From Hyphomicrobium sp. NDB2Meth4 (GTDB taxonomy: Bacteria; Pseudomonadota; Alphaproteobacteria; Rhizobiales; Hyphomicrobiaceae): DNA of 64,000 nt. The notes beneath the pieces were generated by a model. It worked only from the letters and a program-made list of their open reading frames with translations. It did not search any database and had not been told where the DNA came from. Of the stretch, positions 18,936-33,089 are shown in pieces. The DNA is taken from positions 248,001 through 312,000 of the forward strand of contig NZ_FPEJ01000005.1 of the NCBI RefSeq assembly GCF_900117445.1, given 5' to 3'. Positions within the stretch are counted from its first letter, which is position 1, and every line of letters begins with the position of its first letter. Both the position numbers and the translations under genes were made by a program.

Positions 18936-21242
18936 TTAGCGTCCCTTCTCCTGCGCCTTGCGCAGAGCCGCCGCGAACGCGCTTTCCCCCGACGACTGTT
19001 CCGCCTGCCGCGGAGGCGGAGCGGACGAGCGCGGAGCCGAAGCACTCGGTCGTGCTGCCTGGTGCCCGGCGCCGATGTCGATTGCACCCGACTTCATCGT
19101 CAGCGCGATGCGCTTGCGCGCAACGTCTACCTCTTTGACGCGCACCTTCACCACGTCGCCCGCCTTCACCACCTCGTGCGGGTCCTTGATGAAGCGGTCC
19201 GCCATCTCCGAGATGTGCACCAGCCCGTCCTGATGCACGCCGACATCGACGAATGCGCCGAACGCGGCAACATTGGTCACGACGCCTTCGAGCTGCATGC
19301 CGGGCTTCAAGTCGCCGATGCTGTCGACGCCATCCGCAAAGGTTGCGGTCTTGAATTCCGGACGCGGATCGCGGCCCGGTTTCTCCAACTCGGCGAGAAT
19401 ATCCGTCACCGTTGGAATGCCGAACGCTTCGTCGGCAAACTGCGCCGGCTTCAGCGACTTCAGAAATGCCTTGTCGCCGATGATCGACTTCAGCGGCCGG
19501 CCCGTCGCCGCTGCGATCTTCTCGACAACCTCGTAGGCCTCCGGATGCACGGCCGAACCATCGAGCGGATTCTTGCCATCCATGATGCGCAGGAACCCCG
19601 CCGCCTGCTCGAACGCCTTTGCGCCAAGCCGCGGCACCTTCTTCAGCGCCACGCGCGACTTGAACGCCCCGTTCTCGTCGCGGAAGGCAACGATGTTCGA
19701 GGCAAGCGTCTGATTGAGGCCCGACACGCGCGACAGCAGCGGTACCGACGCAGTATTCACATCGACGCCAACCGAGTTCACGCAATCTTCCACCACCGCA
19801 TCGAGCGAGCGCGCCAGGCCGCCCTGATCGACGTCGTGCTGATACTGCCCAACACCGATCGCCTTCGGCTCGATCTTCACCAGCTCCGCGAGCGGGTCCT
19901 GCAGGCGCCGCGCGATCGACACCGCGCCCCGCAGGCTGACATCGAGATCGGGAAACTCCTTCGCCGCCAGCTCCGACGCCGAATAAACCGAAGCGCCCGC
20001 CTCCGACACCATCGCCTTGGTCAGCTTCAGCTCCGGCATCTTCGCCATCAGCTCGGCGACGAGCTTGTCCGTCTCGCGACCGCCGGTTCCGTTACCGACA
20101 CTGACGATATCGACCTTGTGCTGCTTGCACAGCGACGCCAGCGTCGCCAGCGATCCGTTCCAGTCACGGCGCGGCTCGTGCGGATAAATCGTCGTCGTCG
20201 CCACCACCTTGCCGGTCGTATCGACCACAGCCACTTTGACGCCCGTGCGGATGCCGGGGTCGAGCCCCATCGTCGCGCGCGGGCCTGCAGGCGCCGCCAG
20301 CAGCAGGTCTTTCAGGTTGCGCGAGAATACGCCGATCGCTTCCGCGTCTGCCCTCTCCTTCATGCGCGCGAGCAGGCCCGATTGCAGCGAACCATGCAGC
20401 TTGTCGGCCCATGCGCGGTGCACCGTATCCCCGAGCCACGCATCGGCGGGGCGCCCACGATCGGCAATCCCGAACGCGTTCTTGATGCGCCCCTCGGCAG
20501 GATGCGTCTTCCCCGCCTCGTGCGGAATATCGAGCTCCAGCGCCAGCACGCCCTCGTTCAGGCCGCGCAGCATGGCGAGCGCGCGGTGCGAGGGGATGTC
20601 CTTGATGCGCTGCCCGAACTCGAAGTAGTCGGAGAACTTGGCGCCTTCTTCGTTCTTGCCCTTGCGCACCACCGACTTCAATTCGCCGTCGCTCCACATC
20701 CATTCGCGCAAGCTGCCGACCACCGTCGGCGTTTCCGCAATGCGCTCGATGAGGATGTGCCGCGCGCCTTCCAGCGCCGCCTTCGTATCGGCGATGCCTT
20801 TTTCGCTATCGACGAACTTGGCCGCTTCCGCTTCCGGATTGAGAGCGGGGTTCTGCAGCAGCGTCTCGCTCAGCGGCTCCAGGCCCGCCTCACGCGCGGC
20901 CTGCGCCTTCGTGCGCCGCTTCGGCTTGAACGGTGCGTAGATGTCTTCAAGTTCCATCTTCGTCTCTGCGCCGTTGATCGAACGGGCAAGCTCGGGCGTC
21001 ATCTTGCCGAGACCGTCTATGGTCTTCAGCACCAGTGCGCGCCGGTCTTCCAGCTCACGCAAATAGCCGAGCCGCTCTTCCAGCTTGCGCAGCTGCGTAT
21101 CGTCGAGGCCGCCGGTCTTCTCCTTGCGGTAACGCGCGATGAACGGAACCGTCGCGCCCTCGCCCAGCAGCTCTACAGCAGCGGCGACCTGCTTGGGAGC
21201 AACGTTGAGCTCGGCTGCGATGCGTTGATTGATCTTGTCCAT
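18936..21242 (-). CDS. tex: Tex-family RNA-binding transcription accessory protein
   Basis: A 768-residue protein, the usual Tex length. It has the N-terminal helical domain starting [11 protein letters not shown], the [15 protein letters not shown] segment, a YqgF-like RNase H fold ([16 protein letters not shown]), helix-hairpin-helix repeats ([19 protein letters not shown]) and a C-terminal S1 RNA-binding domain ([21 protein letters not shown]). The end is a low-complexity Ala/Pro/Ser tail. Tex acts on stalled transcription complexes in the cytoplasm. No operon partner is apparent. Confidence 0.93.
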
Positions 21243-21442: not shown

Positions 21443-22192
21443 TCACCCGCGCTTCACGCATGGCAGGATATAACTGAAACCCTGAAAGTCGCCGAAATCG
21501 AACTCGACATCGTAGGGCTTCACCACGACATGCACGCCGTCGTCCGGCGGATCGTGCAGCGCCATCAGATACAACGGGTCGATCAACCGCGCTGTATCGT
21601 TGTCCCAATCGGGGCGGCCATATTTGTTCGTCTTCCACACTGTCGCCGCGTCATCGCGCACCTCGTACACTTCGAGATGCACTTCCGGCAGGTACTTCGC
21701 TTTCCCGCCCGGGCGAAAGACATTCGCCAGCTTCTGTCCGCGCTTGATCTCATCGCCTGCTTTGAAGCTGGCGACGTCCTCGTACTTCAGATGATAGAAC
21801 GCCGAGTAATAGTACGGCGCACCCTTATCGAGGTTGAGATCCTCCCGCGTATGCCGGATGAGCAGAGCGCCTTCATCGCCCCACTGCCAATTGGCCTTCC
21901 ATACCGCCGACACCACGCCGGGCGCCGGCGCCAACACCGCATCACCCAGACGCCCACCGTCGATGCCCGAATGCACCTCGTCGCGACGCGTGCCATCCAC
22001 GTCGATCCAACTCGCGTAGAGCGAAGTCAACGGCGAGCAATCATATCCTTCCGGATAGCTCGGCTTCAGCCCCGTGCGCGTAATGTCATAGCCCTTCTTC
22101 ACGGACAGCTTCCCTTGCGCAGCAGGCTGCAATGCTAACAGCGCCACAATGCAAGCAGAGACGCGCAGCACGCTCCTGATATTGATCCTCAC
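21443..22192 (-). CDS. secreted M23-like (LytM fold) protein
   Basis: About 250 residues with a signal peptide. The segment HSGIDGGRLGDAVLAPAPGVVSAV matches the N-terminal part of M23 peptidase domains, and HLEVYEV supplies a second histidine motif. Only one His of the usual H-x-H motif is clear, so activity is uncertain. The GTG at 22192 is chosen because GGAGGGG lies just upstream and it places the signal peptide at the N-terminus. Role: cell-wall remodelling or a non-catalytic LytM adaptor. Confidence 0.65.
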   Translation of the reverse strand: MRINIRSVLRVSACIVALLALQPAAQGKLSVKKGYDITRTGLKPSYPEGYDCSPLTSLYASWIDVDGTRRDEVHSGIDGGRLGDAVLAPAPGVVSAVWKANWQWGDEGALLIRHTREDLNLDKGAPYYYSAFYHLKYEDVASFKAGDEIKRGQKLANVFRPGGKAKYLPEVHLEVYEVRDDAATVWKTNKYGRPDWDNDTARLIDPLYLMALHDPPDDGVHVVVKPYDVEFDFGDFQGFSYILPCVKRG

Positions 22193-22308
22193 ATCCCCTC
22201 CAGTGATTGCGGCCCCACCCATGTGGGAGCGATCGCGCCTTCGTTAAGCGCCTCGGGATCCATTCGGCAATTAGCGTCAACGGTTAACGAAAACGCGCAA
22301 TGTTTTGC

Positions 22309-22418: not shown

Positions 22419-23156
22419 ATGCCAGCCAACACCGCGGTGCGCTCACTACTCAACGCGCCCGACGTCAACCATGAACGCGCCGCAAATACGCTTTGCTTCG
22501 GTGAGCTTGTCGCTCTCCCCGCTTCCGTTCCTGCAGATGTCACCGTATGGCGGCTCGACCGTCGCGAGGATAACTTTGTCGCCCCACGCACCCTTCTCAC
22601 CGCCGACGACTGGCGCGAACTGAGCCGTCTGCGCGGCGACGCGCGCGAGCGCGGCTTTGCTGTGCGCGGCCTGCTGCGCGCAGCGTTAACGCAAGCCGTG
22701 GAGGGCGCCATCGCGCCGGAGGTATGGCAATTCACCAGAAGCCCCTACGGCAAGTTGCTGCTCGCTCCTCACCTGCCCGCGCTCGACTTCAGCATCTCGC
22801 ACGCCGGATTAACCTCGTGCATCGCCATCTCCACTTCGGGGCGCATCGGTCTCGATATCGAGCATTGCGCTGTGCCCAACTGGCACAGCCTCGCCGGTGA
22901 CTTCCTGCTCAGCACAGACCGCGACATGATTAATCGCGCCCCGCCTGCCCAGCGCGAATGTGCGTTTTCGCATGCTTGGACGGCCAAAGAGGCCTTCGCG
23001 AAGTTGCTCGGAGTCGGCCTCGCCATGAGCGCACCTGCCAACGACTGCGGCTTTGGAACGCGACTTGCGACGTGGCAGCTCGAAAGCCCGTCGGGCGCCC
23101 TGAGCATCAGCCTTGCCTTCGATGAACCCGTCGAAAGGGAGCTCAAGCGCGCCTGA
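22419..23156 (+). CDS. 4'-phosphopantetheinyl transferase (Sfp type)
   Basis: A 245-residue enzyme with the Sfp-family motifs: FSISHAGLTSCIAIS, then the Mg-binding GLDIEHC, then WTAKEAFAKLLG. It moves the phosphopantetheine arm of CoA onto a serine of carrier domains. The next gene encodes a synthetase with one such domain, so that is the likely target. The gene start has no strong ribosome-binding site. The two genes are 55 bases apart and almost certainly one operon. Confidence 0.87.
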   Translation: MPANTAVRSLLNAPDVNHERAANTLCFGELVALPASVPADVTVWRLDRREDNFVAPRTLLTADDWRELSRLRGDARERGFAVRGLLRAALTQAVEGAIAPEVWQFTRSPYGKLLLAPHLPALDFSISHAGLTSCIAISTSGRIGLDIEHCAVPNWHSLAGDFLLSTDRDMINRAPPAQRECAFSHAWTAKEAFAKLLGVGLAMSAPANDCGFGTRLATWQLESPSGALSISLAFDEPVERELKRA

Positions 23157-23211
23157 CGCGGCAAGTAACCAAACCGATCCTCAGCTCAAAGAGGACTTAG
23201 GGAAACGCATC

Positions 23212-26200
23212 ATGGCTTTCGTTGGCACCGAGCATACCGGCGTCCCATTGAGCCACCCCACCGCGCCGCGTTTCCTGCATCGCTATTTCGAGCGCCAGGT
23301 CGACCGCGTACCTCATCGCGTCGCCGTGGAGTGCCAGCACACCTCGCTCACCTACGTCGAGCTTGACCGTTACGCCAACCGGATTGCGCATGCCCTGCAG
23401 CGCTGCGGTCTCGAACCAACCGCGCTCGTCGGCATCCTCCTCGACAAGTCTCCGGACCTCTACGCCGCCATGCTTGGCACGCTGAAGGCCGGCGCGGGTT
23501 ACGTGCCTTTGGACCCCAAATTCCCAACCGATCGCATGTCGGCCATTCTCGCTGATTGCGGTGCCAGCGTCGTCGTCACCGATGCCGTGGGCGCCGAGCG
23601 TCTCGGCGACTCGGTCGACGCACGCTTTCTCCTTCTCGATTCCGACAAGGACTGGATCGAAGAGCTGCCCGCCACGGCAATCTCGACCCGCAGTCTCGAT
23701 CTCACGCCCAAAGACCCCTGCTACGTCATCTATACGTCCGGCTCCACCGGCCGCCCCAAAGGCGTGATGATCGAGCACCGCAACGCGTCCGCCTTCATCG
23801 AGGGCATGCTGGAATCTTATTGCGTCGACGAGGACGATCGCATCTACCAGGGCTTTTCCGTCGCCTTCGATGCCTCCGTCGAAGAGATCTGGCTGGCGTT
23901 CTCGCAAGGCGCAACGCTCGTCGTCCCGCCGCAAGACGTATCGCGCTCCCCGGTCGATGCCGCCGAGTTCATCCGGCAGCGTGCCATCACCTACTTTTCG
24001 ACCATCCCGACATACCTCTCAATGATCGATCAGGAGCTGCCGACCGTATCGACCATCGTGGTCGGCGGCGAAGCCTGCTCGACCGAACTCGTCAATAGAT
24101 GGGCAAAGCCCTGGCGCCGACTGCTCAATACGTACGGTCCGACCGAAGCCACCGTCGTCGCCACGCTGTCTGAATGCATCCCCGGTCAGCCCGTCACCAT
24201 CGGCCACGCTCTGCCCGGCTATCGCACCCACGTTCTCGACGAGGACATGGAGCCCGTCGCCGTCGGCGAAGTCGGCGAGCTTTACATCGGTGGTCCAGCC
24301 ATCGCGCGTGGCTACGTAAACGCGCCCGAGATGACGGACGAGCGCTTCCTCCACCTGCCGCTTGTCGATAACGGCCGCCTCTATCGTACCGGCGATCAAG
24401 TCCGCCTGTTGGAGACGGGCGATCTGCAATTCATTGGGCGCATCGACGGGCAGATCAAGATTCGCGGGTTCCGCGTCGAGCTGTCCGAGATCGAAGCCGT
24501 ACTACAGCAGCAGCCGGGAATTCGCGCTGCCGCTGTAAAGGTTGCCCAGACCGAGCAGGGCATGGAGCTCGCCGCGTTCGTAGTCGCCGACAGCGCCGAC
24601 ACGCTCGATGCCGGGATGCTCGCCGAAGTGCTGAGCCGCGTCCTCCCCGAATACATGCTGCCGAAGTATCTCGACGTCATCGCGGACATTCCGCTCTCCA
24701 ACAGCGGCAAAGTCGACCGCAAGGCGCTGCCCGAACCGCACACGCTTCTGAAGCGCACACGCGGCAACATCGAACGCCCCGCAGACGAGTTGGAACGACG
24801 CATTGTCAGCATATGGCAGGATGCGCTCGGCATCCCAGAAATCTCGGTAACCGACGATTTCTTCACCGACCTGCGTGGCCATTCACTCCTTGCAGCGCGC
24901 ACTATCTCCGCGCTGCGAACCAGCTTCGCTAACACCTCGATCGCCGTGCGCGATCTCTATCGCCACCCGACGGTCCGCGCGCTTGCAATCGAGCTGCGCC
25001 AACGCGGCGTCGACAACGGCGAGCCGGCCCATACGGCCGACGAAGCATTGGTGACGCCCAGCGAACTCGCCTTCGCCAGTGTCGGGCCCATCACCCGCAC
25101 CCTCGTTAGTTGGCTGCAGGGCGTTTGCGTTCTCGCCTATTACGCTCTCGAATCCGCGCCTATCAGCTTCGCCATCCTACTCACCACCGCGATCTACAAT
25201 GGCAACATCACCTGGGTGGAAGCCGCCTCCATCTCCACCGTCTTCGGCTTCGGCTACTGGCCGTCGATGGTGTTGCTCACCATCGCTATCAAATGGCTGG
25301 TGATCGGCCGCTATAAGCCCGGGCGCTACCCGGTTTGGGGCTTCTATTACTATCGCTGGTGGCTGGTAACGCGCTTCCAGGCGCTCGCCTGGTCCGACAT
25401 GTTCGCCGCCACGCCGCTGATGAGCCTCTACTATCGCGCCATGGGCGCCCGCATCGGCCGCGGCGTCACGCTTGCAACCTCGCACTGCCTCGCCTTCGAT
25501 GTCGTCTCCATCGGTCGCGGCAGCAGCATCGGCACCGAAACGCAGCTCCTCGGCTGCCGCGTCGAGGATGGCATGCTGGTCATCGCTCCGATCGACATCG
25601 GCCGCGATTGCTTCGTCGGTATGCACTGCAATCTTGGCCTCGACACTCTCATGGGCGACGGCGCACGCCTCGACGACATGTCGGCGCTGTCAGACGGCAC
25701 CGCGCTCGACCCCGGCGAAATGCGCGCCGGATCACCCGCCCTGCACGCAACGGTGCGCGCCCCCGGCGACCAGTTGACGCCGCCGCCGCGCTTCGGCCGC
25801 GCTTTCCTGTTCGGCTTTCTGCACCTCGCCCTCATTTACGCGATGGGTTATTTCCTGCTGGCAACCATCGCCCCGTCCGCATTGCTGATCTTGGCAGCGC
25901 TGTACTTCGCCAGCCCTCTGTGGACGATCCCGGCTGCACTTCTGTCGGTGCCGCTGTCGGTCGCCTGCTATCTGCTCGGCACCATCGCCGTGAAGCGTTA
26001 CCTGATCGGCAGGCTCGAGACCGGCACCATCCGCCAGTACAGCTTCGCCTACCTGCGCCACTGGTTCGCAAAATACCTGATGGAGAATACGCGGCAGATC
26101 ATGATGCCGCTGTACGCGACCGTCTATCTGCCCGCGTTTCTGCGCAAGCTTGGCGCCAGCATCGGCCACGGCTCGGAAATCTCGACTGTCGCTCACATCT

Positions 26201-27273
26201 GCCCCGATCATCTCGAGGTCGGCGACGGCAGCTTCCTCGCTGACGCCTGCCTTGTCGGCGGCCAGCGGATCCACGCCGGCTACGTGCAGACAGCTCCGGT
26301 TGCCATCGGCTCCAAGACCTTCATCGGCAACAGCGCGCTCGTCCCCGGCGGCACTATCGTCGGCGACGACGTCCTGATCGGCGTCTCGTCCACCCCGCCC
26401 AGCGCCACGCGCGTGCCGGACGATAGCGCCTGGCTCGGCGCGCCCTCCTTCAAGCTGCCACATCGCCAGCAGGACTGCTGCTTCCCCGAAGCGACGACGT
26501 TTGCGCCGACGAGGTCCATGCAGCGCCAGCGCGCCTTTATCGATGCCGTGCGTGTCATCGCCCCGGGCACGATCCTGATGCTCAATCTGATCCTTCTCGC
26601 GATCGGGCTCGTCATCGCCTGGCAGAACTTGCCGCTGTGGGGCGTCGTGCTCGCGGTGCCGGCTCTCAATGCAGCCGCATCGTTCAACGCCATTCTCATG
26701 ATTGCGCTGATCAAGAAGGCGCTCATGGGCACGCTCGAGCCAACCGTGCGCCCGCTATGGTGCCGCTTCGTCTGGGTGAACGAACTGGTCAACGCGCTCT
26801 ACGAAGGCGTCGTCGCCATCGTCATGACACCGCTTCTCGGAACCCGAATGGCCGCGCCGGCGCTGCGCATGATGGGCTGCAAGGTCGGAAGCTGGACCTT
26901 TATCGACACGACCCTGTTTTCAGAGTTCGACCTCGTCCATATCGACGATCACGCCGCGCTCAACCTCGGCGCCACCATCCAGAACCATCTTTTCGAAGAT
27001 CGCGTCTTCAAGGCCGACACGCTTCGCATCGGTCGCGGCTGCTCTATCGGCAACATGGCCGTGGTGCTCTACGACACACAAATGCACGCCGGCGCCAAAC
27101 TGTCGCCGCTCTCCGTGCTGATGAAGGGTGAAACGCTCCCTTCCGGCAGTGTGTGGGCGGGCATTCCGTGCGAGCAGATTGCGCGCGGCAGAGCCAGCGA
27201 CCTGGAGCAACTCCAACCGCCGCCAATTCCGGCAACGCCTGTAATCTATGTGGAGCTGCCGCGCGCCGCCTGA
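23212..27273 (+). CDS. Pls/PosA-type membrane nonribosomal peptide synthetase
   Basis: About 1353 residues. An adenylation domain (motifs YTSGSTGRPKG at about 174-184, FDASVEEIW, NTYGPTEA, LYRTGDQV, NSGKVDRKALP) is followed by one carrier domain with Ser558 in LRGHSLLA. The rest holds six membrane helices in three pairs, alternating with three hexapeptide-repeat-like domains. There is no condensation or thioesterase domain. This matches epsilon-poly-lysine synthetase (Pls), where the C-terminal part joins amino acids into a homopolymer. Hand alignment to GrsA gives specificity residues D220 A221 E224 S263 V283 G285 T307 V315 V316 K500, close to published lysine codes. The ATG at 23212 has AGGGA upstream; in-frame starts at 23113 and 23122 lie inside the PPTase gene. 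Confidence 0.88.
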   Translation: MAFVGTEHTGVPLSHPTAPRFLHRYFERQVDRVPHRVAVECQHTSLTYVELDRYANRIAHALQRCGLEPTALVGILLDKSPDLYAAMLGTLKAGAGYVPLDPKFPTDRMSAILADCGASVVVTDAVGAERLGDSVDARFLLLDSDKDWIEELPATAISTRSLDLTPKDPCYVIYTSGSTGRPKGVMIEHRNASAFIEGMLESYCVDEDDRIYQGFSVAFDASVEEIWLAFSQGATLVVPPQDVSRSPVDAAEFIRQRAITYFSTIPTYLSMIDQELPTVSTIVVGGEACSTELVNRWAKPWRRLLNTYGPTEATVVATLSECIPGQPVTIGHALPGYRTHVLDEDMEPVAVGEVGELYIGGPAIARGYVNAPEMTDERFLHLPLVDNGRLYRTGDQVRLLETGDLQFIGRIDGQIKIRGFRVELSEIEAVLQQQPGIRAAAVKVAQTEQGMELAAFVVADSADTLDAGMLAEVLSRVLPEYMLPKYLDVIADIPLSNSGKVDRKALPEPHTLLKRTRGNIERPADELERRIVSIWQDALGIPEISVTDDFFTDLRGHSLLAARTISALRTSFANTSIAVRDLYRHPTVRALAIELRQRGVDNGEPAHTADEALVTPSELAFASVGPITRTLVSWLQGVCVLAYYALESAPISFAILLTTAIYNGNITWVEAASISTVFGFGYWPSMVLLTIAIKWLVIGRYKPGRYPVWGFYYYRWWLVTRFQALAWSDMFAATPLMSLYYRAMGARIGRGVTLATSHCLAFDVVSIGRGSSIGTETQLLGCRVEDGMLVIAPIDIGRDCFVGMHCNLGLDTLMGDGARLDDMSALSDGTALDPGEMRAGSPALHATVRAPGDQLTPPPRFGRAFLFGFLHLALIYAMGYFLLATIAPSALLILAALYFASPLWTIPAALLSVPLSVACYLLGTIAVKRYLIGRLETGTIRQYSFAYLRHWFAKYLMENTRQIMMPLYATVYLPAFLRKLGASIGHGSEISTVAHICPDHLEVGDGSFLADACLVGGQRIHAGYVQTAPVAIGSKTFIGNSALVPGGTIVGDDVLIGVSSTPPSATRVPDDSAWLGAPSFKLPHRQQDCCFPEATTFAPTRSMQRQRAFIDAVRVIAPGTILMLNLILLAIGLVIAWQNLPLWGVVLAVPALNAAASFNAILMIALIKKALMGTLEPTVRPLWCRFVWVNELVNALYEGVVAIVMTPLLGTRMAAPALRMMGCKVGSWTFIDTTLFSEFDLVHIDDHAALNLGATIQNHLFEDRVFKADTLRIGRGCSIGNMAVVLYDTQMHAGAKLSPLSVLMKGETLPSGSVWAGIPCEQIARGRASDLEQLQPPPIPATPVIYVELPRAA

Positions 27274-27275
27274 GA

Positions 27276-28115
27276 TCAGTTCTCGAATGTGATGCGCCCG
27301 ACGACCTTGCCGTCGCACACGTTGGAGCAATCGATGTATCCGGGCACGTCGAACGTATCGTAGAAGCGCAGGTCGAACTCGAAGTAATCGATGACAACCG
27401 ACGCGCCGACGTTCCAATACCAGTAATCGATGCCGCCCTTGCTGGGCTCACCGTCGCTGTAAGCCAGCATGCCGCTGACAGACGGTTGCCAGTCGTCGCC
27501 GAATTTCGGCAGGTACTTCACCAGCGAGGACTCGATGATCCAGTTGCGACCCACGCCGCCCTGATAGTCGGGAGAGTAGTAAAGCGTGACGCCGCCGACG
27601 AGATCCTTCGGGATGAGATCGTAGTTCACTGAGCCGTAAAACTCGAAGAAGTCGAGGTCAGCCCAGCCAGCCGCGTTCGGATAGGCGTAATAGATAAAGC
27701 CGCCATCCAGCTCCGTCCGCCCGAACTTCTTGTTCGCGCCCACCCAGCTATAGATCGAGTAGTCGCCTGACTCCTCGAACGCGTTGTCGAGGTTCGGAAA
27801 GACGCCGAAGTTGACGTTCGTCGCCCACACGCCCGCATAGAACCAATCGTATTTGAAGTCAGCGCCGCCCTGGATCGCCGCGCTGCCATCCGTGTCGCTG
27901 AACCCGCGGAATCGATAGTCCGAAGCGAGGCCCACGTTCACGGTGAACTTGGCACCCTTCGCGTTCTCTTCATTGTCGTCGAGGATTTCCAGCGACGGAA
28001 TGCCGGTCTGCGCTTGTGCCGGCTGGGCATGAGCATGCTGCATGGGCAGAAGCATCATAAATACAGCGCACCCGACAAGATTTCGGATCGCCTTCAGAAC
28101 TTCCGTCCGCAGCAT
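27276..28115 (-). CDS. TorF-family putative outer-membrane porin
   Basis: About 279 residues with a signal peptide and alternating beta strands rich in Tyr, Trp and Phe. NVGLASDYRFRGFSDTDG is typical of the TorF family (TIGR02001). It ends in a strand with terminal Phe-Glu-Asn. ATG at 28115 has GGAGG upstream. It would form an outer-membrane channel of unknown substrate. The stop codons of this gene and the synthetase are only two bases apart in convergent orientation. Confidence 0.82.
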   Translation of the reverse strand: MLRTEVLKAIRNLVGCAVFMMLLPMQHAHAQPAQAQTGIPSLEILDDNEENAKGAKFTVNVGLASDYRFRGFSDTDGSAAIQGGADFKYDWFYAGVWATNVNFGVFPNLDNAFEESGDYSIYSWVGANKKFGRTELDGGFIYYAYPNAAGWADLDFFEFYGSVNYDLIPKDLVGGVTLYYSPDYQGGVGRNWIIESSLVKYLPKFGDDWQPSVSGMLAYSDGEPSKGGIDYWYWNVGASVVIDYFEFDLRFYDTFDVPGYIDCSNVCDGKVVGRITFEN

Positions 28116-28385
28116 CAATGCCTCCTGCAACACCGGAGCAAGTCTTTTTCTCGATTTTCTTCCGTACGCATACGCTCAAACCGAGAGACACCCGATTCGC
28201 GCTGCTCCGACAAACGCTAGAGCGCGACGAAGGCGGGTTGCGTCGGACGAGTAACACTGAGGACACAAGGTGGAAAACCGGTGGGCGAGCGCCTCGACAT
28301 CCCACCCGAATCACCGCCACTTCCAACCAAAGCTCGCCGAATGAGCAAAGGCGTACACAGCCGCCGAAAATAACGAGGGATTGGC

Positions 28386-29141
28386 ATGCTACGACTGACA
28401 CTCGGACTGACCTTCGCGCTAGCGATCGCTGGTTCCGCACTGGCAGACGGCTACGAGGATCCCAAATCGTTCAAGGCACCGGCGGCGCCGATCTGGAGCG
28501 GTATCTATCTCGGCGCCGGCGCTGGCTACGGCCAAGCATCCACCCGCGACGACTATAGTGAGAATGTCAGCGGCGACACTTTCAGCACCAGCTTTAGCGG
28601 GCAATCCGCTCAGGGCGGTCTCATTCGCTTTCTTCTCGGCGCCGATCGGCAGATCAAGGAAAAGTTTGTCCTCGGAGTGTTCGCCGATTTCGACTGGACG
28701 GACATCAGCCAGACCTACAAGGCGACGGCTACCGGCAGCAGCGACGCCATCGACGATGAGCTGACAATGGAATGGCAGTGGTCAATCGGCGGTCGCGCCG
28801 GATACCTCTTCACGCCGACGACGATGCTCTACTTCCTCGCGGGCTTCACCCAGGCGCACTTCAAGAGCGACGGCTGGTACGATATCTACCCGACCTCCGG
28901 GCCCATCGATGTGCTGCCGGGCAAGTCATCGATCACGTACAACGGCTACGTTGTCGGCTTCGGCATGGAAACACTGATCGGGCACAACGTCTTCCTGCGC
29001 GGCGAGATGCGCTATTCGGAGTTTGACGGCCAGGTGGTCAACAGCGGCACGCTGTTCGGCGACAGCTACAGCGACAGCGAGCACCCGAGCCTTCTCACCG
29101 GCATGCTCGGCCTCACCTACAAATTCAACCGCGCCGACTGA
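28386..29141 (+). CDS. outer-membrane beta-barrel protein (Omp25/opacity type)
   Basis: A 251-residue protein with a signal peptide (ending ALADGYEDP). It then has PIWSGIYLGAGAGYGQ, the usual first strand of this family, and aromatic-alternating strands up to LGLTYKFNRAD. A short eight-strand barrel is expected. Function is structural or adhesive in relatives; nothing more specific can be read. The 270 bases upstream hold no supported gene. Confidence 0.82.
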   Translation: MLRLTLGLTFALAIAGSALADGYEDPKSFKAPAAPIWSGIYLGAGAGYGQASTRDDYSENVSGDTFSTSFSGQSAQGGLIRFLLGADRQIKEKFVLGVFADFDWTDISQTYKATATGSSDAIDDELTMEWQWSIGGRAGYLFTPTTMLYFLAGFTQAHFKSDGWYDIYPTSGPIDVLPGKSSITYNGYVVGFGMETLIGHNVFLRGEMRYSEFDGQVVNSGTLFGDSYSDSEHPSLLTGMLGLTYKFNRAD

Positions 29142-30441: not shown

Positions 30442-32916
30442 TTAGGATCGCCGCGGCTTAGCCCGTGCGGTTGCGGGCGCCGACGCCGGATCGTCCGGCC
30501 AAGGATGGCGCGGATAGCGTCCCTTCATCTCTGCCTGCACCGCAGCCCACGAGCCCTTCCAGAATCCGGGAAGATCGCGCGTGATTTGGATGGGCCGGTG
30601 CGCGGGCGATAATAGATGCAGCGTCAGCGGCAGCTTGCCATCTGCAATGGATGGATGCTGCGTCAATCCAAACAGCTCCTGCACGCGCACATGCAGCGCC
30701 GGAGCCCCCGCACTCTCATAGTCGATCGCATGCCGATTTCCGGTCGGCACTTCGAAATGCGTCGGCGCCTCCGCCTCGAGACGTTGCTTCAGATGCCACG
30801 GCAGCAGCGTATCGAGCGCCGCGCCCAGATCATCCGCGCCGATCTCGGCAAGTTTCGTCTTCCCCGTTAGAAACGGCGCCAGCCAATCCGTAACCGCAAT
30901 AGAAAGGCCCGCATCGGTCAGGTCGGGCCAAGCGTCCTCGCCTGCAGCCCGCAGGAACCCCACGCGATCACGCAACTGCAATTGCGTCTTGCTCCAGGGC
31001 AGGCGATCTATGCCCAATCGCGCGATGCCCTCCGCGAGCAACCGCGCGGTTTCATCATTCGCCGCCAGCGCACGCGTCTCATTGGCCAGCACGATTGCAT
31101 CGAGGCGGCGCACTCGGCGCGATCTCAGTGCCGCCGCCTGGGCGTCGAATTCGATCTCATCGCTCTCGCGGATACGGTCCCCGGCAGAGGCCATCACCTC
31201 TGCCTCATCCGCTGCTGCCGCCAGCAGAATGCGCGTCGACGCAGCCTTGCCCGACAGCTCTGCCGCGATGATGAATTGCGCCCGCGCCAGAGGATGCGTC
31301 GGCTCCACATTTGCGCCGCGCCCATTAGCCAGCAGAAATTGCCCGCTGCCGCCACGCGACTTGCCGATCCGCTCGGGGAACGCGAGCGCCAGCAATTGCG
31401 CAACGGATAGATCCTCGCCTGCCTGTCGCGAGCCGGCACTCTTCGCAGCGATCCGAGCCCACTTCGCCGCCAGTTTGCGCATGTCGTTTGCGCGGCGCGA
31501 GCGGTCTCGGCGAAACCCCTCCAACCGATGCACCAGATCGACGTCATTGCCACCGAGCCCGCGCTCTACGATCACCGCCGCGATGTCCGCCGCTTCCTCG
31601 GCGTGGCCTCGCTCCGCCGCACTGATCACCATGCGTGCGAGCCGTGGCGGCAACGGCAGCGACCGTAACCGCTGCCCCATCGCAGTGATGCGCCCCTCCG
31701 CATCGAGCGCCGCCAGCTCCATCAGTTCCTCGCGCGCGGCATCGATGGCCGTGATCGGCAACGGATCGAGCCAGCGCAGCGAGCGTGGGTCGCTCGCGCC
31801 CCACTCGGCACAGTCGAGCAGCAACGCCGAAAGATCGGCCGAGCGGATTTCCGCCTCGGCATACGCGGGCAGGCTCTGCGTTTGCGGCTCGTCCCATAAG
31901 CGATAGCAAACGCCGGGCTCCGTTCGCCCAGCGCGTCCTCGGCGCTGATCGGCGCCTGCCCGCGACACCCGGACGGTTTCAAGCCGCGTTACGCCGACAT
32001 CCGGCTCGAACCGCGGGACGCGCGCAAGCCCGCTATCGATAACGACACGCACCCCCTCGATGGTGATCGACGTCTCGGCAATCGACGTCGCCAGCACCAC
32101 CTTGCGCTGCCCTTTGGCGGCAGGCTGTAGTGCGAGATCCTGCGCCCGCATATCCATCGCGCCATAGAGCGGCGCCACCATGATGGCAGGATCGCTGATC
32201 CGCTCCCTCAGTCGCTCCTCGACCCGGCGAATTTCGCCCTGCCCAGGGAGAAACACGAGGATAGACCCCGTCTCCTGTCGCAGCGCATGCATCACTGCAT
32301 CCGTCGCCTGATCCTCGATGCGCGCATTTGCATCGCGCCCGAGATAACGCGTCTCGACCGGAAACGCCCTCCCCTCACTGACGATGACATCCGCACCGCC
32401 GAACAGTTCCGCAACGCGCGCGCCATCGAGCGTTGCCGACATCGCCAGGATACGCAGGTCATCGCGCAGCGCGCCCTGCGCGTCGAGCGCGAGCGCCAGT
32501 CCGACATCGGCATCGAGCGAACGCTCATGGAATTCGTCGAACAGCACCGCGCCGATCCCGCGCAACTCGGGATCATCGAGGATCATGCGCGTGAAGACGC
32601 CTTCCGTGACGACCTCGATGCGCGTCTTCGGTCCCGACTTTGAGACCATGCGTGCGCGCACCCCGATCGTCTCTCCGACAGTCTCCGCCAAAGACTGCGC
32701 CATGCGTTCGGCCGCAGCACGCGCAGCGATCCGGCGCGGCTCCAGCACCAGGATCTTGCGGCCCTTCAGCCAGCCTTCGTTCATCAGGGCCAGGGGAACG
32801 CGCGTTGTCTTGCCTGCCCCCGGCGGTGCCACGAGCACGGCCGATGCCCGCGCCGAAAGAGTGCGGCGGACATCATCCAGAACGGCATCGATCGGCAGCG
32901 CGTCGGCGAAATTCAT
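30442..32916 (-). CDS. hrpB: ATP-dependent helicase HrpB
   Basis: An 824-residue DEAH-box helicase. Motif I is VAPPGAGKTTRVPLAL, motif II DEFHERSLD (DEFH variant typical of HrpB), motif III MSATLDG, motif VI QRRGRAGRTEPG. Helicase-associated domains and the HrpB C-terminal domain (LPLTLHLLSPAHRPIQITRDLPGFW) follow. ATG at 32916 begins the usual MNFADALPID. The cellular role of HrpB is poorly defined. It stands alone. Confidence 0.92.
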   Translation of the reverse strand: MNFADALPIDAVLDDVRRTLSARASAVLVAPPGAGKTTRVPLALMNEGWLKGRKILVLEPRRIAARAAAERMAQSLAETVGETIGVRARMVSKSGPKTRIEVVTEGVFTRMILDDPELRGIGAVLFDEFHERSLDADVGLALALDAQGALRDDLRILAMSATLDGARVAELFGGADVIVSEGRAFPVETRYLGRDANARIEDQATDAVMHALRQETGSILVFLPGQGEIRRVEERLRERISDPAIMVAPLYGAMDMRAQDLALQPAAKGQRKVVLATSIAETSITIEGVRVVIDSGLARVPRFEPDVGVTRLETVRVSRAGADQRRGRAGRTEPGVCYRLWDEPQTQSLPAYAEAEIRSADLSALLLDCAEWGASDPRSLRWLDPLPITAIDAAREELMELAALDAEGRITAMGQRLRSLPLPPRLARMVISAAERGHAEEAADIAAVIVERGLGGNDVDLVHRLEGFRRDRSRRANDMRKLAAKWARIAAKSAGSRQAGEDLSVAQLLALAFPERIGKSRGGSGQFLLANGRGANVEPTHPLARAQFIIAAELSGKAASTRILLAAAADEAEVMASAGDRIRESDEIEFDAQAAALRSRRVRRLDAIVLANETRALAANDETARLLAEGIARLGIDRLPWSKTQLQLRDRVGFLRAAGEDAWPDLTDAGLSIAVTDWLAPFLTGKTKLAEIGADDLGAALDTLLPWHLKQRLEAEAPTHFEVPTGNRHAIDYESAGAPALHVRVQELFGLTQHPSIADGKLPLTLHLLSPAHRPIQITRDLPGFWKGSWAAVQAEMKGRYPRHPWPDDPASAPATARAKPRRS

Positions 32917-33089
32917 GGCCGCTATATCCAGCAACGAAATCGCCCGCGCAAGTGCACGAGCCCCCGCCCCAGCAAGCTGAAATGAGCCTCAGAACCGGCA
33001 GAAGCCGCCTTCTGATGGGCCCTGCTCAAACAATTGCCACGGTTCTTTCGCAAGTCGAACACTGACTTCAGCGAATCGACCGGCCCCAC

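Follow-up and report, generated by a model that had tools for sequence, protein, structure and literature searches.

A predicted epsilon-poly-L-lysine synthetase locus with an M23-like companion gene in Hyphomicrobium sp. NDB2Meth4

The locus described here probably encodes a system for epsilon-poly-L-lysine, or for a short epsilon-linked oligolysine, in which an M23-like partner protein would cut the polymer; we assign this reading a probability of roughly 0.68. It is located in a stretch of 64,000 nucleotides from Hyphomicrobium sp. NDB2Meth4, which was analysed as a whole and is called the window in the following. The direct observations behind the reading are the domain layout of the synthetase, the residues of its substrate pocket, its phylogeny, an aminomutase gene neighbouring the synthetases of its sister clade, and the co-occurrence of the M23-like gene with lysine-code synthetases. 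The features are listed with their coordinates in Table 1. The genome of the window is denoted G000, while further G and L numbers denote the other genomes and loci compared.

Table 1. Features of the predicted polylysine locus, with positions counted within the window
Feature	Position	Strand	Basis and remarks
M23-like protein, divergent from PPTase	21443..22222	-	PF01551, 29.3 bits (cut-off 28.7); 7/397 genomes
Sfp-type phosphopantetheinyl transferase (PPTase)	22419..23156	+	PF01648
Pls/PosA-family synthetase, lysine-type pocket DAESVGTVVK	23122..27273	+	TIGR02353, 544 bits; Pfam domains; code
Gcw_chp family protein, possible barrel	27276..28133	-	PF09694; doubtful member of the system
Outer-membrane beta-barrel protein	28386..29141	+	PF13505; putative member of the system

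The synthetase frame is open from 23113 to 27273 (1386 codons from TTG), and translation likely starts at the ATG at 23122. A Pfam scan of the protein detected one adenylation and one carrier domain (AMP-binding, AMP-binding_C, PP-binding) as well as a weak hexapeptide match, and gave no match to a condensation or thioesterase family. The terminal domain of 680 residues clears the curated cut-off of the NCBIfam model TIGR02353 "Pls/PosA family non-ribosomal peptide synthetase" (544 bits against 423.1; residues 672-1352). Domain scan and family comparison thereby bear out the Pls/PosA layout proposed in a first-pass annotation of this DNA, and a stand-alone NRPS fragment was ruled out by the same score. 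Eight AMP-binding frames are present in the genome, and the synthetase alone exceeds 750 residues. A simple hydropathy scan yielded 13 overlapping peaks in about six to seven stretches (671-731, 898-960, 1152-1205, 1225-1251). Between unit 1 of the window synthetase and unit 3 from a relative, a match was found (29.8% identity; E 3e-18), which supports a repeat in the membrane domain. Hydropathy and unit match are compatible with six membrane helices arranged around three hexapeptide-like units. An AlphaFold model of the terminal domain, made from five sequences, had a pLDDT of 37, too low for use.

The PPTase frame, which shares 35 bases with the beginning of the synthetase gene, contains IGLDIE and WTAKEAFAK, which we take to be PPTase motifs. 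The adjacent PPTase of the first-pass annotation was confirmed. PF01648 gave three matches in the genome, of which two are over the cut-off: the PPTase of the cassette and one other, adjoining pdxJ- and lepB-like frames, presumably at the usual acpS place. A same-strand PPTase lies directly upstream of the synthetase at four of the nine lysine-code loci; none was found in the fetched stretches of L060 and L061.

For reading the substrate pocket, the columns were set by the solved PosA domain of Acinetobacter baumannii (residues 217, 218, 221, 260, 280, 282, 304, 312 and 313), and the published PosA pocket D M E H N G T V S was reproduced at these columns before the window was read. The window pocket is formed by D253, A254, E257, S296, V316, G318, T340, V348 and V349 together with K533, giving DAESVGTVVK, the same ten residues that had earlier been read by hand. 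Asp and Glu thus occupy positions 1 and 3, and position 2 is Ala, the residue given for lysine enzymes by Patel and Gulick, who describe Met at this position in ornithine enzymes and Phe in those for diaminopropionate and diaminobutyrate (PMC10522769). A plasmid-borne Streptomyces gene annotated as pls, which aligns over 508 residues with the whole domain of 7WEW, the PDB structure of the epsilon-poly-L-lysine synthase A domain, has the code DAESIGTVVK and is identical to the window at nine of the ten positions. The earlier assignment to lysine was thereby strengthened; the Pls code is closer to the window pocket than the lysine code first compared with it (D A E S I G S V C K). The sole difference, Val for Ile, falls at the column of PosA Asn280, a residue that makes no contact with the substrate (PMC10522769). 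Among the nine genes of the window clade, two have the exact Pls code (L059, L085) and seven have V at the differing position. Since the pocket is one residue away from that of a Pls matching 7WEW, lysine is very probably the substrate, and a homopolymer is the probable product, somewhat less firmly so. Substrate codes can be degenerate.

Some further observations on codes were made alongside. In the PosA-like clade, L103:1366-5439 (G549) has the pocket DVEANGTGS, unlike the codes met here or named in the consulted text of PMC10522769. In L077 (G007, from the same genus as the window), the synthetase has a code of the diaminobutyrate type, DFECLSAVT, and its frame is broken by an in-frame stop. 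G032 has two different lysine-code synthetases of the window clade (L085, L086).

Two residues of the window protein stand out in the alignment of 67 proteins. At residue 588 (24874-24876) in the carrier motif, three positions ahead of the phosphopantetheine serine, the window protein has Arg, and the other 66 of the 67 proteins have Gly; residue 1245 (26845-26847) in the terminal domain is Arg in the window and Pro in 64 of the 67. Both Arg residues are unique to the window and lie at conserved sites, so that this copy might be impaired. A decaying copy without product, which the absence of the synthetase from the corresponding place in G001 and G002 would also fit, is extremely unlikely given the full-length frame of 1386 codons, the intact phosphopantetheine serine and pocket, and a single departure at 83 near-invariant columns. 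Such a departure is not exceptional, as 18 of the 67 proteins depart at one or more of these columns.

Trees were calculated with FastTree on 67 proteins and with IQ-TREE on 24 rows. Rows were left out when they were not full homologues (L017, L018, L019), had a split frame (L082) or duplicated longer loci (L029, L033, L038, L041); the frame-interrupted L077 was kept for the code and excluded from trees and conservation counts. Both trees unite the nine lysine-code genes in a single clade, which is sister to a clade with DGES codes, and place Streptomyces Pls elsewhere. Forcing all lysine-code rows together was 37.6 log units worse (AU p=0.00025; 24 rows), with the group defined by code and an earlier tree already seen. 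The AU test thus rejected a group in which the window synthetase and Streptomyces Pls descend together and all other codes are left outside. In half-gene trees, the lysine and DGES clades were together in both (support 95 and 97), the position of Streptomyces Pls differed, and the lysine-code clade reached a support of only 89 in the C-terminal half. As Streptomyces Pls falls outside the window clade, the lysine pocket was either acquired or retained on two distinct branches. This is partly known already, since lysine-type homologues fall into two groups in a published tree, according to its figure legend (PMC10522769, Fig. 5). Neither of the two outcomes named beforehand as speaking against the lysine-type annotation, a predicted non-basic substrate or a place in a branch of known different function, appeared in these sequence comparisons.

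The sister clade provides a test of how far pocket and gene neighbourhood agree. Its pocket differs from that of the window at positions 2, 6, 7 and 9 and equals the reported beta-lysine code except for I to V. All five DGES genes (L065, L066, L067, L090, L091) are adjoined by a divergent KamA-family gene, for which lysine 2,3-aminomutase was the best model (267-277 bits, below its cut-off of 525 and above the KamA-family cut-off). These alphaproteobacteria are therefore predicted producers of a beta-lysine polymer, and the agreement of pocket and aminomutase neighbour in the sister clade strengthens the reading of the window pocket. For the epsilon-poly-beta-lysine synthetase of Streptoalloteichus hindustanus, the code DGESISVVNK and an adjacent lysine-2,3-aminomutase gene are described, and it was the aminomutase beside the synthetase that led to the discovery of the polymer (PMC10522769). 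The sister clade shares this code but for I to V and has a KamA-family neighbour; the tree was calculated without the S. hindustanus protein. The window, unlike the S. hindustanus locus, has a lysine code, and it shows neither the DGES-SVVN code nor an adjacent lysine-2,3-aminomutase gene. A misleading code and another diamino acid as substrate (beta-lysine, ornithine or a longer analogue) would fit the beta-lysine code of the nearest sister clade and the single KamA-family gene that the window's genome has on another contig. This is very unlikely in view of a pocket that differs from the beta-lysine code at four positions and from ornithine at five or more, of the lack of a KamA-family gene beside any of the eight other lysine-code loci, and of three of the seven lysine-code genomes of the order (G170, G221, G064) having no KamA-family match at all. 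Further genes in common among DGES loci encode a C45/AAT-family hydrolase (L065, L066, L090, L091) and a DLH/S9-like hydrolase (L066, L067, L090, L091).

Among 60 relatives, 18 gave a TIGR02353 match over the cut-off, and with the window protein as query (E 1e-150) the Pls/PosA family was detected in 66 of 397 genomes of the order. Codes were read in all 66: seven have the lysine code (G000, G393, G381, G343, G170, G221, G064) and three the beta-lysine-like DGESVSVVN (G036, G250, G200), while the rest begin with DLED, DFE or DME. A family member in an alphaproteobacterium is therefore not surprising in itself; the lysine code is the rarer trait (7/397). DLED-code homologues in rhizobia and Methylobacterium are already described in PMC10522769. 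Isolates of Stenotrophomonas and Paenibacillus are reported to produce epsilon-polylysine (PMC10433424), so that the claim of a Gram-negative source would have a precedent.

The companion gene divergent from the PPTase gene encodes a protein with a hydrophobic N-terminus and, as judged by eye, a putative signal peptide. Its assignment to PF01551 is marginal (29.3 bits against a gathering score of 28.7), and its relatives in L061 and L086 stay below the cut-off with 27.1 and 28.2 bits. M23 peptidases are characterised by the motifs HxxxD and HxH. All seven aligned M23-like sequences keep H84, D88, H144 and H182, and all have Glu in place of the first His in the HxH motif. Comparison with solved structures gave no meaningful match (two weak ones), and the structure model of the protein alone had a pLDDT of 30.

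At a threshold of E 1e-25, the M23-like gene was found in seven of the 397 genomes of the order, the same seven that have the lysine code, and in none of the other 390. One chance draw matching these seven genomes has odds of 3e-15, which is no true probability because the genomes are related. The both-or-neither pattern within genera is better evidence: in genus g21, G343 and G381 have both the M23-like gene and a lysine-code synthetase and G027 has neither, and in genus g10, G393 has both and G016, G183, G208, G316 and G357 have neither. In G064, the M23-like gene lies on a different contig from the synthetase, alongside a PPTase and a BcsS-family gene. In G032, outside the sample of 397, it lies beside one of the two lysine-code genes and is absent from the fetched stretch of the second copy, L085. 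A class-wide search found it in one of 337 genomes, the window's own, and no match was obtained in 72,556 plasmid records at E 1e-8. The cassette is thus not self-contained, contrary to the first-pass annotation: the M23-like gene accompanies the lysine-code synthetase in all seven sampled genomes, and genes for outer-membrane barrels recur nearby.

A brief literature search returned no report of an M23 partner for such a synthetase. In Streptomyces albulus, pls is followed by pldII, whose product is a polymer-cleaving metallopeptidase that is active outside the membrane and is reported to protect the producer (PMC9223678). By analogy, a polymer-directed role of the M23-like protein is conceivable at slightly less than even odds, and the gene may serve to trim the product or to protect the cell. 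The seven genomes belong to four genera in two families only, so shared ancestry explains part of the co-occurrence, and the loci of the lysine-code clade may move as one island. That the M23-like gene is a mere passenger, sharing a history with the synthetase and having no functional tie to it, is nevertheless rather unlikely, since both genes are present or absent together within g21 and g10, and since in G064 both were retained on separate contigs.

The outer-membrane genes make a weaker case than the M23-like gene. Homologues of the barrel protein occur in four other lysine-code loci (L059, L060, L061, L086), in three of the four fused to a BcsS domain, and a homologue of the Gcw_chp protein occurs in one other, L086. 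At E 1e-20, barrel matches were obtained in eight of 60 relatives including the window's own genome; the best other match (G032, 2.7e-46) lies beside a lysine-code synthetase, and the six remaining ones are weaker (4e-24 or worse) and come from genomes without a known lysine code. BcsS-family genes were present in all 30 genomes looked at, so that their presence says nothing and only nearness does. A BcsS-family gene lies within about 3.3 kb of five of eight lysine-code synthetases and within about 6 kb of four of the five DGES synthetases. The BcsS-family match of the window's genome does not share a contig with the synthetase, and the same holds for G032.

These neighbours also bear on the fate of the product. 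Lysine might be activated and a short oligolysine fixed to a component of the envelope (lipid, wall or surface polymer), where it would change the surface charge rather than kill competitors, with the M23-like protein and the barrels serving attachment. M23 relatives commonly act on cell walls, and the outer-membrane BcsS-family genes near five of eight lysine-code synthetases would fit such a role; isolated Pls is also reported to form glycerol and PEG esters (PMC9606270). We regard attachment as unlikely, because all characterised family members named in PMC10522769 give free polymers and Pfam scans found no ligase or lipid gene in the cassette.

The cassette is flanked by genes for Tex and HrpB (18936-21242 and 30442-32934), which are re-oriented and about 9 kb apart. 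In G001 and G002, from the same genus, Tex and HrpB are divergent and directly adjacent, without the cassette, which shows this region to be variable. No 16S gene was found in the genome of the window, and the placement in Alphaproteobacteria is supported by the Tex protein, for which 10 of the 12 best records listed, out of 107 matching ones, are alphaproteobacterial. A horizontal origin was not indicated by base composition, the GC content of the cassette (0.61-0.65) being within that of its neighbours (0.59-0.68).

Compared with known systems, the window synthetase has the family, layout and nine of ten pocket positions in common with Streptomyces Pls (7WEW), and Pls loci have an adjoining peptidase gene as well (M1 in L055, L056). 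Differences are found in sequence (31% identity to L055, separate clade), in the neighbouring peptidase, which is M1 and downstream for Pls and M23-like and divergent in the window, and in the PPTase and outer-membrane genes that adjoin the window synthetase, unlike Pls. PosA, the delta-poly-L-ornithine synthetase of A. baumannii (PMC10522769), belongs to the same family and likewise has a Gram-negative host; its pocket is DMEHNGTVSK against DAESVGTVVK, and posA is described as a single-gene operon. The metallopeptidase PldII (PMC9223678), acting outside the membrane, and the putative metallopeptidase of the window are alike in being encoded beside a lysine-code synthetase, but they are of unrelated families (M1 in the L055 equivalent, M23-like in the window). 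Adjoining peptidases were also seen in other branches of the family (L052, L055, L056, L057), namely S8 in Sphingomonas, M1 in Streptomyces and Kitasatospora, and S41 in Skermanella, where ectB upstream fits a diaminobutyrate product.

In the epsilon-poly-L-lysine system proposed here, the PPTase would arm the carrier domain of the synthetase, and the adenylation domain would activate L-lysine and load it onto the carrier. The repeated membrane domain would then join the lysine carboxyl to the side-chain amine of the next lysine and presumably pass the growing polymer toward the periplasm. There, the M23-like protein, probably periplasmic, may cut or trim it, as PldII does beside pls in Streptomyces, and the outer-membrane barrels may let the product out.

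What the analysis adds is that the synthetase belongs to a lysine-code lineage of its own, which is constantly accompanied by an M23-like gene and has a sister lineage with a predicted beta-lysine product. A wider reading is offered tentatively, with the odds against it: the locus would represent a Gram-negative polylysine system whose synthetase, within the lysine-code group, does not derive from Streptomyces Pls but stands for a distinct lineage that shares the lysine pocket, is sister to the beta-lysine clade and has its own set of genes for handling the product. The epsilon linkage of polylysine, formed with a side-chain amine, is similar to the crosslink between D-Ala and diaminopimelate, and an M23-type enzyme of wall remodelling would have been co-opted to cleave it; release of the product would fall to an outer-membrane barrel. 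In different branches of the family, hydrolases unrelated to one another (M1, M23, C45) would have been taken up, to serve as an antidote or to set the chain length.

Polylysine is an antimicrobial polymer used as a food preservative, and cationic isopeptide homopolymers in general are antimicrobials of practical use. The perfect co-occurrence of the M23-like gene with the lysine code provides a concrete candidate for the export or survival step in Gram-negative producers. Lysine and beta-lysine sister clades, with an aminomutase beside one only, amount to a natural experiment on how such pockets change, and through them uncharacterised alphaproteobacteria offer two predicted products.
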